Positions 29,761 to 40,735 of a stretch of 64,000 bases of DNA are shown here, one piece after another. Position 1 is the stretch's first letter. Every line of letters starts with the position of its first letter. This DNA comes from a virus. Both the position numbers and the translations under genes were made by a program. The DNA is taken from positions 102,824 to 166,823 of the IMG/VR virus record IMGVR_UViG_3300028596_000009; one strand, given 5' to 3'. The notes beneath the pieces were generated by a model that saw nothing but the letters and a program-made list of their open reading frames with translations, was not told the DNA's origin and did not search any database.

Positions 29761-30297
29761 TCAGCTACCGCAGATGCCGACCTGGACGATGCCGTCCGAC
29801 GACTCACCCTGCGCGTAGAACACGACCTCCATCTGCACCGGCGCCGTGGCGTCGTTGACGACGTTGGGGTCGCCGGACAGGAACTTGAACACGGTGATGT
29901 AGTCGCCGTCCGCCGCGTCCGGAACGTTGCGCGGGTGCTTGCCGATGCGCTGCACCAGGTAGCCGGGCTGGAGCGGCGTCTTGAACAGCTCCAGCGCCTC
30001 GTTGTACACCGACTCCGGCTTCGCGTCGCCGAGGTCCCGGTCGAGGAAGAAGTTGAGGGTGCCCTCGTAGTTCTTCTTCGTGGGGTTGGCCACGTTGGCG
30101 TCGTCGCACAGACCACCGGTGTCGTCGGTGTCGCGCTCGGTCCAGCCCAGCGTCAGGTCGGTGGTGAGGGCGCAGGAGATGTTCACACCCGCGTTGATCT
30201 CCGCCGCCGTCGGGCAGTTCACGTTCGCGATGCCCGCCGGGATGGGGACCCACCACACGGTCACATTTGGGGGCAACATTTTCACTTCGTTTGCCAT
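29761..30297 (-). CDS. Major tail protein (178 aa)
   Basis: Just upstream of the chaperone pair and downstream of the neck genes, as expected for the tail-tube subunit. The N-terminal NVTVWWVP segment is followed by INAGVNISCALTTDLTLGWTERD, a beta-rich tube-protein pattern; compact size of 178 residues fits. It has its own leader downstream of a terminator, which suggests separate high-level expression. Four Cys residues are unusual for a tube protein. The start region can fold against codons 14-18 (see the inverted repeat at 30244-30309). Confidence 0.75.
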   Translation of the reverse strand: MANEVKMLPPNVTVWWVPIPAGIANVNCPTAAEINAGVNISCALTTDLTLGWTERDTDDTGGLCDDANVANPTKKNYEGTLNFFLDRDLGDAKPESVYNEALELFKTPLQPGYLVQRIGKHPRNVPDAADGDYITVFKFLSGDPNVVNDATAPVQMEVVFYAQGESSDGIVQVGICGS

Positions 30298-30443: not shown

Positions 30444-31166
30444 CTACTTGCTCGCCCGCCAGTTGCGCTTCTTCTCGTTCACGCACGCACGACAGCGGCG
30501 GCGATTGCCTTCGCGAATCGTGTTCGCCTCGTCGTACGGGTGACCCTTCGGGCAGTGGGTTCTGAGGGTCTGATACCCACCCTTGCCCAGCTCGGGCTTG
30601 AGGCCGTGACGCTCCCTGTAGGTACGCGTCCGGTCAGCGCCATTGATCAGCGCCTCGACCTTCTTGCAGGCAAGACACTGCCGATGCCCGTCGGGCGTGA
30701 CATACGTGTTCGCTTCGTCGTACGAGTGACCCTTCGGGCACTTCTGCTTGCGAGCGTTCTGGGCCGTCGGGGCAACTCCCCGAAGCGTGTTCACCTTCTG
30801 GGTGACCGGCTCCAGATGGGCAGGGTTGCAGCAGGGCCGCATGCGGCACCGGTGGTCGAGTTCGAGACCTTCCGGAATGGGCCCCACCAGGAGTTCGTAG
30901 GCGTAGCGGTGGACCCTGACCATCGCTCCGGCGGCGATGCGGAAGACTCCGTAGCCACCATTGTTCAGGGCCCCGCCCCACATCCAGCACTCACCCTCTC
31001 CGGCCTTGTGGAGGTAGGCGTAGAAGCGCTTTTCATCAGAGCCGATGATCTTCGTCGACCTGGCGGGACGGTAGAGCTTGGTGTGCTTCTCGTAGTGCGG
31101 GGTGCACATACCCCACTTGTCGACCGACCCGAAGCAGTTGTCGTGCCAGCACGTACGATTGACCAT
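30444..31166 (-). CDS. HNH homing-type endonuclease (240 aa)
   Basis: The core LELDHRCRMRPCCNPAHLEPVT near residues 97-118 is an HNH motif (DH ... N ... H) with flanking Cys. Upstream MVRVHRYAYELLVGPIPEG is the usual companion strand-helix. C-terminal repeats CPKGHSYDEAN and CPKGHPYDEAN, each followed by CxxC, form two zinc-binding DNA-contact modules. Such genes are mobile intron-less homing nucleases in phages. It is inserted between a neck gene and the major tail gene and is bounded by a terminator on one side and a related repeat pair (30297-30308, 31285-31296). No intron is evident. Confidence 0.85.
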   Translation of the reverse strand: MVNRTCWHDNCFGSVDKWGMCTPHYEKHTKLYRPARSTKIIGSDEKRFYAYLHKAGEGECWMWGGALNNGGYGVFRIAAGAMVRVHRYAYELLVGPIPEGLELDHRCRMRPCCNPAHLEPVTQKVNTLRGVAPTAQNARKQKCPKGHSYDEANTYVTPDGHRQCLACKKVEALINGADRTRTYRERHGLKPELGKGGYQTLRTHCPKGHPYDEANTIREGNRRRCRACVNEKKRNWRASK

Positions 31167-32777: not shown

Positions 32778-33305
32778 TCACACGTGTCCGCTGCCGAACC
32801 CGGCGCCCCGGTCCTTCGAGCCGGAGCAGCCACAGGATCCGGTGTACGAGGTCATGCAGCACATCTGGGGGAAGCCCCGCAGGGAGTAGGGCAGGCAGTC
32901 CGCCGGGTACGGCTGGAAGTCGACGATGGCGAACGCGTACTCGTCCTCGATCTGCTCGTCGTCCTTGTCGGCTTCGTCGAGGAGCTGCTTGGCGCGGGCG
33001 AGGAGGGCGTTGGCCACCTTGGCGCCGTCGGTCTGGAGATCCTCGGTCTTGATGACCTTGGAGATCAGTGCCTCGGAGTTGGCCACGGCGCCGATGGCGT
33101 CGGCGGCTGCGCGCTTGATCCGGCCCGACGGTGACGGCCTGAGGCTGTAGAGGGCGAGCAGCCCGTTCAGGTGCGCGTCGGAGAACATGTACACCGGCAT
33201 GCCCTCGCCGGTGAAGTCCACCTTGTCGACGTCGGGGATGAGCGCCCGGACGATCCCGAGCGGAGTGGTGAAGTCCGGCGGGTACACGGACGCGTCGTCA
33301 GCCAT
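32778..33305 (-). CDS. Head-tail connector protein, gp6-like (175 aa)
   Basis: ATG 33305 is chosen because the upstream extension lies over the winged-helix gene in another frame. N-terminal half is helical with an adaptor-like pattern (DFTTPLGIVRALIPDVD, MFSDAHLNGLLALY, RIKRAAADAIGAVANSEAL). The C-terminus holds Cys pairs. It would form the ring under the portal. No Shine-Dalgarno sequence is evident, so it may be coupled to the gene upstream. Confidence 0.65.
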   Translation of the reverse strand: MADDASVYPPDFTTPLGIVRALIPDVDKVDFTGEGMPVYMFSDAHLNGLLALYSLRPSPSGRIKRAAADAIGAVANSEALISKVIKTEDLQTDGAKVANALLARAKQLLDEADKDDEQIEDEYAFAIVDFQPYPADCLPYSLRGFPQMCCMTSYTGSCGCSGSKDRGAGFGSGHV

Positions 33306-33327: not shown

Positions 33328-34215
33328 TCACCGGCAGCCGGGACACCGCCGAACGGCTCCGGATCCGTCGGGGTTGTAAGTCCCCCAGCAGCCACGGCAG
33401 ATGGCGAAGCTCTGTACGGCCCTCTGGTGGACGATCTCCGCCTCGTCCGACTCCTGGGGCCCAGAGGTACCTTCCGGACCGTCAGGGGGTGACTGGGGGC
33501 CGTCCTCGGCCCCGTCGCACCAGATCTCTTCCTCCCCGGAAATCTCTTTCTCCTCCTCGCCCGAGGCTCCGCCCGAGGGCACGACCACGACCGGCACGTC
33601 TCCACGAGAGGGAGTAAGAGGGAGAGAAGAGTCTTCTTCGAAGACAGTCTTCTTAGAGACTGCGGGGTGAGCCGACTGTCGGGTATCCCGGCACTCGGGT
33701 TCGCCCTTTTTGTCCGACTCGTCTTCCCCGAGTGCGGGTTTTCCGGCAGTCGGGCCGACCTGCGGGTTTTCCGGATCGTCGGCGTCGGCCTTCATGAGCT
33801 TCTCCATCCGCGCCCGGGCCCGCTTCACCGCCGCCGGGGTGGGCGGGATGACCCGGACGTCCTTCACCCCGGGCTCGTCCGCGATCTCGTTCAGGAGCGC
33901 CTCGACCTCGCCGTTGTGCGGCGGGGTGTCGTAGGTGATGATCTCGGTCGACCACTGCGCCGTGGCGGAGTCCTGCACGCGGACCTTCACGACGTATCGG
34001 GCGACCTGGAGCAGGCCCATGGCATTTGCCATCGCGTCGCGGCCGTATCCGTAGCGCTTACCCACGCGTTCCAGGGTGATCTCCCAGCCATCTTTCTGAC
34101 GCAGGAGCACCGTGAGAAGCGCCAGTGCCATGAAGTCCAGTTTGAGCGCATCGTCGATGGTTGCGTTCGGGATCATGGCGTAGCCGGGCTTCCGCCCGTG
34201 CCGGGTGCGTGCCAT
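33328..34215 (-). CDS. Winged-helix DNA-binding protein with zinc ribbon (295 aa)
   Basis: Residues 1-110 look like a winged helix of the replication-organiser/HTH_36 type: basic ARTRHGRKPG, then ALKLDFMALALLTVLL, GWEITLERVGKRYGYGRDAMANAM and a wing with RVQDSATAQWSTEI. The middle is acidic and disordered. The C-terminus has CRGCW ... RRCPGCR, a zinc ribbon. Similar proteins occur as plasmid or chromosomal regulators in Streptomyces. It lies upstream of the connector gene and beside the host-like cassette at 34688-36435; it may belong to that cassette. GGAGGG Shine-Dalgarno sequence before ATG. Confidence 0.65.
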   Translation of the reverse strand: MARTRHGRKPGYAMIPNATIDDALKLDFMALALLTVLLRQKDGWEITLERVGKRYGYGRDAMANAMGLLQVARYVVKVRVQDSATAQWSTEIITYDTPPHNGEVEALLNEIADEPGVKDVRVIPPTPAAVKRARARMEKLMKADADDPENPQVGPTAGKPALGEDESDKKGEPECRDTRQSAHPAVSKKTVFEEDSSLPLTPSRGDVPVVVVPSGGASGEEEKEISGEEEIWCDGAEDGPQSPPDGPEGTSGPQESDEAEIVHQRAVQSFAICRGCWGTYNPDGSGAVRRCPGCR

Positions 34216-34304
34216 CAGTACTTACCCTCCGACCTGCGTAGATGCCCCTGAGGCAGATCGTGTTGTACGATGGCCACAGGGGTTGGTTGGTAGCCGTTCC
34301 CCAT

Positions 34305-34340
34305 AAACCCGGTCGTGCAGAAGCGGCCGGGTTTTCTCTT
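34305..34340 (+). terminator. Intrinsic terminator with U-rich tail
   Basis: AAACCCGG at 34305-34312 pairs with CCGGGTTT at 34327-34334 and is followed by TCTCTT. It points to a short plus-strand transcript started upstream of the winged-helix gene, or to read-through protection. No gene lies between 34216 and 34305 on this strand, so a small RNA is possible. Confidence 0.6.
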
Positions 34341-34502
34341 GGTCATCTTACCTTTGGGCCTGACATTGCCACCGAAAAGTGCCAGCCGGGTAGTCGCTTT
34401 TCATGGCCGGTTTCCTCTAGTGCAGGCCAGTGGCCCAGCAGTAGCCTGAGGGAAGGCGTGGCCAACGATTCATCCCTCGCGCGACGTGACCGGGAGGCAC
34501 TC

Positions 34503-34691
34503 ATGCCTGCGTTGTGCAACAAGAGCACGAACGAGAACCGCGAGCCGGAAGGTCCGGACGCGGAAATGACAGGCGAGGAGGCCGTCGCCATGTACAGGGA
34601 GTGGAGGGCCCGCGTCATCGGGGACCGCGACACTCGTGCACATGACATATTCGACCTCCTCGCCGCCACTCGCGAGGAACCGGGCTCCTAG
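34503..34691 (+). CDS. Small acidic protein beside the regulatory cassette (62 aa)
   Basis: ATG 34503 follows GGGAGG at 6 bases. An in-frame GTG at 34458 with a weaker site would add 15 residues. The product is charged and helical, with TGEEAVAMYREWRARV and a C-terminal FDLLAAT helix. Its TAG overlaps the stop of the ATPase gene in a shared CTAG. Small companions of this kind often flank XRE/DUF397 loci in Streptomyces; the function is unknown. Confidence 0.5.
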   Translation: MPALCNKSTNENREPEGPDAEMTGEEAVAMYREWRARVIGDRDTRAHDIFDLLAATREEPGS

Positions 34692-35089
34692 CCCACCACT
34701 TCGGCCCAGACCGTCTTGTCGCCAGAGTTGTTCGTCCAGCCCCACCGACTCGACAGAGCGTCGACCAGGGCGATGCCACGCCCCGACTCTTCGCTGAAGT
34801 CTGCCGGGATCAGCCGGGGTTCACGGGGGGAGCGGTCCGTCACTTCCAGGCGGACCGTTCGCTCACTGATCTTGGTGATGGTCGTACGGATTTTGCTCGA
34901 ATCCGTGTGGCCGATGGCGTTGGCCATCAACTCGGAGACGATCTGCTGGGTGTCGTCCACGAGTTCGTCCAGACCCCAGGTGTAAAGGGCCAGGCTCACG
35001 TCGTGACGGACCTGTCGTACGGAGGTCGGGCAGGACTCATAGATCTTTCCGTACTGCTGCGGTCCTACGGACGCTGCTGTCATGGTCAT
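34688..35089 (-). CDS. RsbW-like ATP-binding protein, anti-sigma-type (133 aa)
   Basis: GHKL ATPase motifs: N-box SELMANAIGHT, G1 LEVTDRSP and G2 GRGIALVDALSSRWGW. Size and order match the single-domain HATPase_c_2 family of Streptomyces, which includes anti-sigma kinases and many proteins encoded beside XRE-DUF5753 and DUF397 genes. It is divergent from the XRE gene across 278 bases, the arrangement seen in host clusters. Likely a cytoplasmic regulator that binds or phosphorylates a partner protein. A full antiterminator partner was not found. Confidence 0.85.
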   Translation of the reverse strand: MTMTAASVGPQQYGKIYESCPTSVRQVRHDVSLALYTWGLDELVDDTQQIVSELMANAIGHTDSSKIRTTITKISERTVRLEVTDRSPREPRLIPADFSEESGRGIALVDALSSRWGWTNNSGDKTVWAEVVG

Positions 35090-35367
35090 CGCGGCCTCGT
35101 TGCTCGCGTTGAGGGTGTCACGGCCTCAGGTGCCGTCTGCCGGTTTTGCCTTGGACTTTCCCCGTAGTGCACAAACGTCCCGTGCGGGGGACCCGGGTGG
35201 GCCAACCTTGCAGGGACGTAACGGTGTTGCCGGTATAGACAGAGTCTCGCGTACGTGCAGTAATGACAAGTGTCTCTGTGACATAATCTCAGAATCACGA
35301 ACATGCGTTCCAGTAGCGGAGGGCGCCGTTCGTCCAAGGAGAAGACGAAAGAAGCAGGAGAGAGCAC
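35090..35367. promoter_or_regulatory. Divergent control region of the cassette
   Basis: Gene-free stretch between the divergent ATPase and XRE genes. It holds TATAGA at 35234-35239 and CATAAT at 35282-35287 as possible -10 elements for the plus-strand XRE gene; no convincing -35 box was found. It probably carries both divergent promoters and an XRE operator. Confidence 0.4.
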
Positions 35368-36225
35368 ATGGCATACAGGGGCGTCGCCACGATGCGGAAG
35401 CGGCTCGTCGGATCCCGACTTCGCAGGCTTCGCGAAGCGGCCGGGCTGAGCATCGAGGGCGTAGCCAAGGAGCTGGGCGTCAACAAGAGCGTCATCTACC
35501 GCCAGGAGACCGGCACCACCGCCACCTCCATCGCGGACGCCCGCGCCTACATCGGCATGTACGGCATCGACAACGAGGAAGAGGCCGAGCGTCTCGTCCA
35601 CCTCGCCCGGTCGTGCCGGACGCGCGGCTGGTGGTTCGCCTACGGGGAAACGGCCGGAGAGGAGCACGTCGATCTGGCCGACATCGAAGACCTTTCCACC
35701 GAGTTCCGCGTCGCGAACCTCAACGGACTCCACGCGCTGCTGGAGACCGATGACTTCGCTCGTGCCTCCATGGAATCCTCCCGCGCTGTCCTCGAAGAGG
35801 AGCAGGTCAACATGGAGGACGTTCTGACCCTCCGCCGGAAGAGGCGCGCGATCCTGGACCGCCCGAGCCCTCCGAAGGTCTGGGCCGTGATCGGGGAAGC
35901 CAGCCTCCACCTGGAGTTTTCCGACAAGGAAGTGATGACTTCTCAGATCAGGCACCTGATCGACTTGTCGGAACGCTCCAACGTCAGCCTTCAGCTCCTC
36001 CCCCTGAACAACCCCGCCAACCTGCTGGTCGCCGGATTCATTTCCATCATGGGGTTCGACGGGACCCCCGATGGATCTGTGGTACACACGTACCGTACTT
36101 TCAGTGATCACCCGGATCAGGTGAAGGTGGACCTGTCGCGCTTTTCTCAGGTCCAGTCGCAGGCCCTGTCCCGTGGTGAGACCCGCGTCCGCCTGGAGCG
36201 AATCCTCGCGGAACGCACCAAGTAG
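35368..36225 (+). CDS. XRE-family regulator with DUF5753 domain (285 aa)
   Basis: Residues about 12-70 are a helix-turn-helix of XRE type (LVGSRLRRLREAAGLSIEGV, AKELGVNKSVIYRQETG). Residues about 110-275 match DUF5753: NLNGLHALLETDDFARA, RRKRRAILDRPSPPKVWAVIGEASL, MTSQIRHLIDLSE, and the final VQSQALSRGETRVRLERIL. In Streptomyces this architecture (WhiJ/AbaA-like) controls development and antibiotic genes and is paired with DUF397 proteins. It is followed 18 bases later by such a gene. Host-derived in style; codon usage is like that of its neighbours. Confidence 0.9.
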   Translation: MAYRGVATMRKRLVGSRLRRLREAAGLSIEGVAKELGVNKSVIYRQETGTTATSIADARAYIGMYGIDNEEEAERLVHLARSCRTRGWWFAYGETAGEEHVDLADIEDLSTEFRVANLNGLHALLETDDFARASMESSRAVLEEEQVNMEDVLTLRRKRRAILDRPSPPKVWAVIGEASLHLEFSDKEVMTSQIRHLIDLSERSNVSLQLLPLNNPANLLVAGFISIMGFDGTPDGSVVHTYRTFSDHPDQVKVDLSRFSQVQSQALSRGETRVRLERILAERTK

Positions 36226-36243
36226 CCCAAGGAGAACAACGAC

Positions 36244-36435
36244 ATGAACAACACCCAGGGCGCCACCGACTGGCACAAGTCCAGCTACAGCTCGCAGAAC
36301 GGCAACTGCGTCGAGCAGGGCATCATGGCCGACACCGGCGCCACTGCCGTCCGCGACACCAAGAACGACGGCGTCGGCGCGGTCCTGAAGTTCGACCGGA
36401 GCGCCTGGACCGCGTTCGTGTCCTCGGTGCGCTAG
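36244..36435 (+). CDS. DUF397 protein (63 aa)
   Basis: The full DUF397 signature is present: WHKSSYSSQNGNCVEQG, a central VRDTKNDG and a final AWTAFVSSVR. Follows the XRE gene with an AAGGAG Shine-Dalgarno sequence. In Streptomyces DUF397 proteins work with an adjacent XRE-DUF5753 protein; such pairs were predicted as toxin-antitoxin-like modules and include developmental regulators. In a phage it could act as a host-control factor, a superinfection factor or a counter-defence. Which partner is inhibitory cannot be read from the sequence. Confidence 0.9.
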   Translation: MNNTQGATDWHKSSYSSQNGNCVEQGIMADTGATAVRDTKNDGVGAVLKFDRSAWTAFVSSVR

Positions 36436-36474: not shown

Positions 36475-36511
36475 AAGCCCGGCCGACTTCGTTCCGGCCG
36501 GGCTTCTTCTT
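36475..36511. terminator. Bidirectional 11-bp terminator between cassette and fibre gene
   Basis: AAGCCCGGCCG (36475-36485) pairs perfectly with CGGCCGGGCTT (36495-36505) across 9 bases. U-rich bases follow on the plus side (TCTTCTT) and on the minus side (TTTT from 36476-36473), so it stops both the cassette transcript and the fibre transcript. Confidence 0.8.
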
Positions 36512-39346: not shown

Positions 39347-40735
39347 CTACTTCGCCGTGGTGGGCTTGGTCGCCGTGGTCTTCGTCTCGGTCTTCTCGGC
39401 GGCCGGGGCAGCCGGGGCGGCCGGAGCCGGAGCCGAACGGATGGTGATCGGCGCGGCGAAGGAGCCACCGCCGGTCGGGGTGCCGTCACCCAGGGAGACC
39501 GCCACCGCGCTGTTGTCGATACCGGCGGCACCGACGATCGAGCGAACGCGGTACTGGATGTCGTCGTGCGAGAAGGAGCCCTCGAACGCCGACAACTCGC
39601 CACCGCCGAGGCTGCGGCCGGTGTCGCCCATGACGCGGACCTCGGGGGACTCGTGGCCCCGGAGGAACGCGGTGACGATGGCCGGGCCGCGCTCCGTGGT
39701 GCCACCGGCCGGAACCAGGTACCACGTGGTCGCGGCGTCCGCCGACTGGTCGATGAGCGGCAGCCACTGCGACTCGACGACCGTGAAGCGGCCCGCGATC
39801 GGGGAGGCGACGTTGACGCGCAGCTCGTTGCCCGCGCCGTCCGTGGTGACGCGCATGTACGTGGTCGCCTGGGCGATCTCGTGGGCGGTCAGCGCCAGCG
39901 ACGGCGGGACGAGCAGAACGAAGTTCTGCACACGGACCATGCGGCCGTTGACCTTGCGCATGCTGATCTGCTGGATCGCCTTCTCCAGCGCGTCCAGCGA
40001 GAGCGGCGGGTTGTCCGCGACGTAGTTGCCGGGGACGACCTGGGCGCCGAAGTCCTGGCTGGTGTTGAAGAAGTCCGGGTTCGGACCGCTCGCCGTGGCG
40101 AGCACGCCGGTGGTCAGGACGTCCTCGGTGTCACGAGCCCAGCGCGCCATCTCCGACGGGAGCTGCTGGAGGACCCTCAGCTCGTCGTTGAGGAACGCCT
40201 CCCACGAGAAGGGGAACCTTGCTCCGTACTTGTTGACGAAGTAGTCGCTCCCTTCCGTGGTCAGGTTGAACGTCGGGTATTCGGTCAGCTCCGGGATCCT
40301 CGGGAGCGCGCGGACGTGACGCTCCGCACCACCGTTGTGGTCGGGGAGCTGGTCCATCTGCGAGTCCCAGCGGACCAGGCGGGCCGGACGAAAATCGGGA
40401 ACCGTGGTGCGCTGCGAGAAGGTCGGCCACTGCTGCGGCAAGTCGGCGTACTGGCCGAGCATGGACGCCTGCGACACCGCCTGGAACAGCAGCGGGAAGT
40501 CGCCGGAGGACACGGCCTCGCGGAGGCGGCCCATCGCCAGGTGCTGACCCTGCGCGGCCTCGCTGATGATGCGCATCAGCTCGACCGGCCGCTTCATGGC
40601 CATGACGTTCTTGAAGGCGGTGTTCTTGATGACCTGGCGCCGGTTGACGTGCGCCTCGGCGATCTTCGCGAACTCGCGGTTGTTCGTGGTCGAGATGCCG
40701 TCGAAAGCCGAGAGGACGTCGATTTCCTTGCTCAT
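39347..40735 (-). CDS. Major capsid protein (462 aa)
   Basis: The order decoration-capsid and the sequence support an HK97-fold shell protein: an N-terminal helical arm of about 130 residues with basic stretches, FRPARLVRWDSQMDQL..., FVNKYGARFPFSWEAFLNDEL as the E-loop/P-domain region, and a beta-rich C-terminal half (FTVVESQWLPLI). The C-terminus is a Pro/Ala/Lys/Thr-rich tail of about 35 residues, unusual for a shell protein and perhaps surface-exposed. It would form the icosahedral head. Abundant late product; followed by hairpins. Confidence 0.85.
   Translation of the reverse strand: MSKEIDVLSAFDGISTTNNREFAKIAEAHVNRRQVIKNTAFKNVMAMKRPVELMRIISEAAQGQHLAMGRLREAVSSGDFPLLFQAVSQASMLGQYADLPQQWPTFSQRTTVPDFRPARLVRWDSQMDQLPDHNGGAERHVRALPRIPELTEYPTFNLTTEGSDYFVNKYGARFPFSWEAFLNDELRVLQQLPSEMARWARDTEDVLTTGVLATASGPNPDFFNTSQDFGAQVVPGNYVADNPPLSLDALEKAIQQISMRKVNGRMVRVQNFVLLVPPSLALTAHEIAQATTYMRVTTDGAGNELRVNVASPIAGRFTVVESQWLPLIDQSADAATTWYLVPAGGTTERGPAIVTAFLRGHESPEVRVMGDTGRSLGGGELSAFEGSFSHDDIQYRVRSIVGAAGIDNSAVAVSLGDGTPTGGGSFAAPITIRSAPAPAAPAAPAAEKTETKTTATKPTTAK

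Follow-up and report, generated by a model that had tools for sequence, protein, structure and literature searches.

The last 64 kb of the 166,823-bp IMG/VR virus record IMGVR_UViG_3300028596_000009 (64,000 nucleotides, referred to here as the window) harbors a four-gene cassette at positions 34458-36435 that resembles the abaA-whiJ-bldB loci of Streptomyces. The cassette lies in the late gene region and encodes a small acidic open reading frame (ORF), an RsbW-like ATPase, an XRE-DUF5753 regulator and a DUF397 protein. Its gene content, layout and conservation, the single clade formed by the XRE regulators and the predicted fold of the ATPase provide the evidence. It is proposed, tentatively, that this abaA-whiJ-bldB-type locus is an old capture from an actinomycete by large phages, most likely of Streptomyces, that it forms a self-contained unit at a hotspot between the capsid and connector genes, and that it restrains host development. 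The genes and the region between the two divergent ones are as follows.

34458..34691, + strand: acidic ORF, 77 amino acids, the fourth cassette gene; start GTG 34458 (the conserved form); conserved in six related phages
34688..35089, - strand: AbaA-like ATPase of the RsbW/SpoIIAB fold, presumed effector; Pfam HATPase_c_2, 3e-11
35090..35367, no strand: divergent ATPase/XRE promoter region, with blocks conserved in related phages
35368..36225, + strand: XRE-DUF5753 regulator (WhiJ-like), 285 amino acids; Pfam HTH_31 and DUF5753, 2.5e-33; PHROG_9908
36244..36435, + strand: DUF397 (BldB-like) protein, 63 amino acids; Pfam DUF397, 1e-18; PHROG_10815

The cassette genes

A preliminary description, made from the sequence alone, had recognized the ATPase, XRE-DUF5753 and DUF397 genes as a Streptomyces-type bacterial module captured into the late region. 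The Pfam matches reveal that the trio is real, and its abaA-whiJ-bldB-like layout and bacterial ancestry agree with that view. The ATPase and XRE genes are divergent, with 278 bp between them, and the acidic ORF and the ATPase gene are convergent, their stop-codon ends overlapping by 4 bases. As in host loci, the HATPase_c gene adjoins the XRE gene and is read away from it; a divergent ATPase gene was found in 20 of 71 host loci with a linked XRE gene. The gene encoding the XRE helix-turn-helix (HTH) and DUF5753 domains is upstream of the DUF397 gene on the same strand, and its product also matches an NCBIfam model of the Sco1979 type below the cut-off. DUF397 proteins are typified by CxE and RDS motifs (PMC7159879). 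In addition to its Pfam match, the phage DUF397 protein has a CVE motif and has RDT where RDS is expected.

The structure model of the ATPase has a predicted local distance difference test (pLDDT) value of 85, and its best PDB matches are RsbW, SpoIIAB and UsfX (E about 1e-6 to 3e-5, template modeling score about 0.7). N-box residues E53/N57, as well as D85 and G103-R104-G105, are invariant across the phages. The model predicts a GHKL fold with the N-box and G-box ATP-binding residues of RsbW and SpoIIAB.

The small acidic ORF, also assigned to the cassette in the preliminary description, is judged from its conservation to be a real gene. In the cassette-bearing relatives its identity falls no lower than about 40%, and its ratio of nonsynonymous to synonymous substitution rates (dN/dS) is 0.31-0.45. 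Its structure model contains one confident helix, the rest being of low confidence. The ORF was recovered in all four cassette-phage control records and in 0 of the 296 Streptomyces genomes searched, and no viral contig beyond the cassette phage group was found to carry it; its motif was not matched in 79 host neighborhoods, nor in the temperate phages Picard and Samy. A host origin of the acidic ORF was rejected on these grounds.

Related phages and origin of the cassette

A capsid-based scan yielded 36 related loci, in which the late genes were then mapped. The cassette lies between the capsid and connector genes in seven contigs (L014-L020), one of which, L014, ends inside it. Since L014/L015 and L016/L017 are near-identical pairs, there are six distinct cassette phages, window included, and the XRE proteins of the other five are 84, 67, 67, 28 and 30% identical to that of the window. 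Another 13 related records, eight of them 150-260 kb, yielded no DUF5753. The nearest isolates (capsid 74-76% identical), Kradal, Satis, Quantum, EhyElimayoE, Frankenweenie, JustBecause and Kela, all infect Streptomyces and are without an XRE gene of the cassette kind.

The preliminary description had placed the cassette between the fibre gene and the connector gene. Its placement in the late region is correct, but the true variable site extends from the major capsid gene (39347-40735) to the connector gene (32778-33305), with the fibre gene also inside it. The gap between these genes is short and without the cassette in L022, L041, L042 and L046, and in a third group, as well as in Kradal and Kela, it is occupied by some 6-8 kb of small genes, most of them on the reverse strand. 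Because other groups fill the same gap with unrelated small genes, it is a general accessory-gene hotspot in the phage group. The Kradal gap (L142:17687-25841) contains about 20 small genes, almost all on the reverse strand.

In a tree with 46 actinomycete sequences, the XRE proteins of the six cassette phages form one clade (100/99), and those of Samy and Picard fall elsewhere, nested among host sequences. The ATPase tree is too short to settle a single origin, with which it is compatible. Across the four cassette genes dN/dS is 0.24-0.49 (0.24-0.28 for XRE), indicating that all four are under purifying selection. These comparisons are read as one old capture from an actinomycete, retained vertically and independent of the captures by temperate phages. 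A recent transfer from a host was rejected; the closest host XRE is about 35% identical, and similarity to plasmid DNA is confined to the stretch of the hairpin and fibre tail at the right end of the query. The same data bear on the idea that the cassette is a selfish passenger, a mobile and non-functional regulatory unit residing in a tolerant hotspot. The capsid-connector gap does take unrelated insertions in this phage group. However, the dN/dS values of all four genes, retention of the cassette over deep divergence (XRE down to 28%) and conservation of the promoter blocks and the right-hand hairpin make such a passenger very unlikely.

One cassette phage, L020 (7262-7690), keeps the XRE gene, the ATPase gene and the acidic ORF without a DUF397 gene, and a hairpin follows shortly after the XRE gene, which suggests that DUF397 can come from the host or is dispensable. 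The toxin-antitoxin-like behavior anticipated in the preliminary description would make XRE-DUF397 a type II toxin-antitoxin pair. This function was predicted for such pairs (Makarova 2009, as cited in PMC7159879 and PMC10364602), and the tandem order of XRE then DUF397 fits it. However, 14 S. coelicolor pairs were overexpressed and not one acted as a toxin-antitoxin system (PMC10364602), L020 lacks DUF397, and a large phage in which no integrase was found has no obvious need for addiction. The cassette is therefore most improbably a toxin-antitoxin system.

No tyrosine or serine integrase (PF00589, PF00239) was found in the 166.8-kb record, which may be incomplete and in which partition genes were not sought. 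Known Streptomyces phage integrases used as queries gave no significant match in the record, and no WhiB gene was found in the phage. The lack of an integrase counts against the lysogeny-like silencing raised in the preliminary description. An XRE protein that represses phage promoters during a quiescent state, as a regulator of lysogeny or superinfection immunity, is likewise improbable, although Picard and Samy carry the same genes within a few genes of their integrase. To our knowledge, no phage-repressor role has been reported for DUF5753 proteins. The predicted immunity repressor of Samy is a different gene, SAMYPH_32 (PMC11302927).

Promoter region and borders of the cassette

Candidate regulatory features within and around the cassette are as follows.

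34305..34334, no strand: left hairpin, terminator-like, between the cassette and the winged-helix gene; from RNA folding
35238..35248, + strand: candidate operator half GACAGAGTCTC, a GACANANTCTC copy; kept in L015, with a single mismatch in L016 and L018; function putative
35280..35290, + strand: candidate operator half GACATAATCTC, a GACANANTCTC copy; exact in L015, L016 and L018; function putative
36475..36505, no strand: right hairpin, bidirectional terminator-like, folding on both strands

Two blocks of the divergent promoter region are conserved in related phages, 35155-35169 (ACTTTCCCCGTAGTG) and 35264-35290 (TGACAAGTGTCTCTGTGACATAATCTC). The two GACANANTCTC copies, 42 bp apart, are kept in four phages; equal hit numbers arose in 1-12% of single-sequence shuffles. 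One conserved block, located ~103-104 bp upstream of the XRE start, holds one of the copies. When host loci were compared with a position weight matrix of the phage block, only L124 and L127 stood out, each with a faintly similar block at ~103 bp, a likeness that is suggestive only. The WhiJ9-type repeat CGxxCTCAAC was rejected as an element of the promoter region, where it has one-mismatch matches at best.

The bidirectional terminator predicted at 36475 in the preliminary description is supported by a hairpin with folding energies of -33.7 and -29.6 kcal/mol on the two strands (z -3.1 and -2.5) and by a GC-rich inverted repeat at the corresponding position in each of the six phages. It is absent from the list of a simple terminator scan, probably because its loop is longer than 8. 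The left hairpin folds with -21.3 kcal/mol (z -3.5) on the + strand and more weakly on the - strand, and a CCCGG...CCGGGTTT hairpin resembling it is seen in L015, L016 and L018. A promoter-like TAnnnT box (TACGAT) is present within 34216-34460, 5' of the acidic ORF, and the left hairpin lies ~40 nucleotides downstream of it; this arrangement is kept in the window and the same three phages. The box and hairpin could encode a short terminated leader or a small RNA. An Rfam search gave no match for 34216-34460.

The winged-helix gene (33328-34215), listed as a possible member in the preliminary description, was rejected because it falls beyond the left hairpin and is not present between the cassette and the connector gene in L019 and L020. 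Its product is weakly linked by PHROG to families of DNA-binding, replication-initiation and DnaD-like helicase-loader proteins. The gene is surrounded by late genes and, with a dN/dS of about 0.45-0.49, is among the fastest-changing neighbors. Two other neighbors are distinctive. An HNH_3 endonuclease gene (30444-31166) is inserted among the tail genes and is probably a mobile, homing-type gene, since no homologue was matched at that place in L016 or L018. The tail tube protein (29761-30297) is 98-99% identical to those of L016 and L018, compared with 85-87% for the capsid and 50-86% for other neighbors, which points either to strong constraint or to the recent exchange of this single gene.

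Proposed function

Host control, one of several roles suggested in the preliminary description, is the best reading of the cassette. In S. venezuelae, bldB paralogs adjoin whiJ and abaA paralogs. WhiJ9 recognizes direct repeats there and turns on iosA, a divergent gene that inhibits sporulation; BldB counters this action, and sporulation is blocked when abaA6 or iosA is overexpressed (PMC10294661). Phage infection is held in check by Streptomyces development, and the developmental genes undergo repression at an early stage of infection (PMC10117723); a phage-borne inhibitor of development of the anti-sigma type is plausible for these two reasons.

We infer the regulatory and physiological steps of the proposed brake on development from these precedents. 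The XRE protein would bind the repeats in 35090-35367, repressing its own promoter and activating the divergent ATPase gene. It would in turn be restrained by the DUF397 protein, perhaps in combination with host BldB paralogs. The ATPase would act on a host developmental sigma pathway as an anti-sigma factor like RsbW or SpoIIAB, and the infected mycelium would be kept vegetative, without phage-resistant aerial hyphae or spores. The acidic ORF may be an accessory specific to this phage lineage, perhaps as a partner of the ATPase.

Several points weigh against a brake on development. In S. venezuelae, overexpressing the five abaA paralogs one at a time had no obvious effect on development for four of them (PMC10294661). 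The candidate operator is only conserved, and the WhiJ9 consensus was not recovered exactly. The host of the uncultivated cassette phage, most likely Streptomyces, is assigned indirectly, and the cassette is dispensable in isolates of the group, because Kradal-like phages infect Streptomyces without it. In addition, Streptomyces phages alter secondary metabolism, and some bring sporulation forward (PMC10276819). The last point favors control of host stress or metabolism other than sporulation, whether of antibiotic production or of a sigma-B-like stress response, or action against a host defence under WhiJ-type control. XRE/DUF397 pairs regulate antibiotic production pleiotropically (PMC6262351, PMC10364602), and NTP-dependent conflict systems also include DUF397 genes (PMC7159879). 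However, PADLOC gave only weak matches to the generic HTH and no core effector model of a known anti-phage defence system, and AbaA6, the best-studied AbaA-type effector, acts on development (PMC10294661). Control of stress or metabolism is thus considered unlikely, but it is the least unlikely of the alternatives.

The fuller form of the developmental brake, in which large, apparently non-integrating phages use a WhiJ/BldB-type pair, an AbaA-type effector and a phage-only protein to defeat development-based immunity, is doubtful. A literature search found no phage factor that lowers developmental genes early in infection, and a conserved phage copy of a sporulation-inhibitor locus is a direct candidate for one. 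The cassette would also provide the enigmatic BldB/WhiJ/AbaA network in compact form outside the bacterial chromosome, and the acidic protein may reveal binding partners of AbaA-type proteins.

Comparison with known systems

The closest known systems are the abaA-whiJ-bldB paralog loci of Streptomyces, such as iosA-whiJ9-bldB9 (PMC10294661), which share with the phage cassette the three domain types, the layout and an intergenic region with repeated elements, those of the phage being candidates only. Unlike these loci, the cassette is carried by phages, encodes an XRE protein only about 30-35% identical, has an extra acidic gene not found in hosts, and is bounded by terminator-like hairpins inside a late gene region. 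The ATPase shares its predicted fold and ATP-binding motifs with the anti-sigma factors RsbW, SpoIIAB and UsfX, but identity is 12-20%, and no sigma factor or anti-anti-sigma gene was recognized adjoining it. The tandem XRE-DUF397 arrangement is shared with Scr1/Scr2 and other S. coelicolor pairs (PMC6262351, PMC10364602), which differ in being chromosomal and pleiotropic regulators of antibiotic production.

The search for the trio in other phages suggested in the preliminary description recovered, beyond the six related phages (L020 without DUF397), Picard, Mojorita and the pair of Samy. Picard (gp24-26) and Mojorita have an ATPase gene (-), an XRE gene (+) and a small DUF397-type gene (+) in the layout of the cassette; they are phages of about 39 kb, and Picard has a serine integrase. 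The Picard XRE gene appears from its nesting with host and Samy sequences to be a separate capture. A Picard-type trio is also present in Streptomyces sp. A1277 (L109:4419-6171; XRE 83%, ATPase 61% and DUF397 76% identical), possibly in a related prophage. The S. ambofaciens prophage Samy has XRE-DUF5753 followed by DUF397, like the cassette (SAMYPH_90/91; PMC11302927), but Samy is temperate, the pair is near its integrase, and there is no adjacent annotated ATPase gene. Several IMG/VR viruses carry the XRE-DUF397 pair. A literature search on actinobacteriophages with DUF397 found nothing.

With trios known from two temperate phages, Picard and Mojorita, and a pair from Samy, capture of these genes by phages is not unique. 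The abundant host triplets, the Picard and Mojorita loci, the Samy pair and the PHROG families for XRE and DUF397 are already known. What is new is a large phage lineage, in which no integrase was found, that holds the locus at one fixed site in the late region, has retained it vertically over deep divergence and has a fourth gene specific to the lineage.

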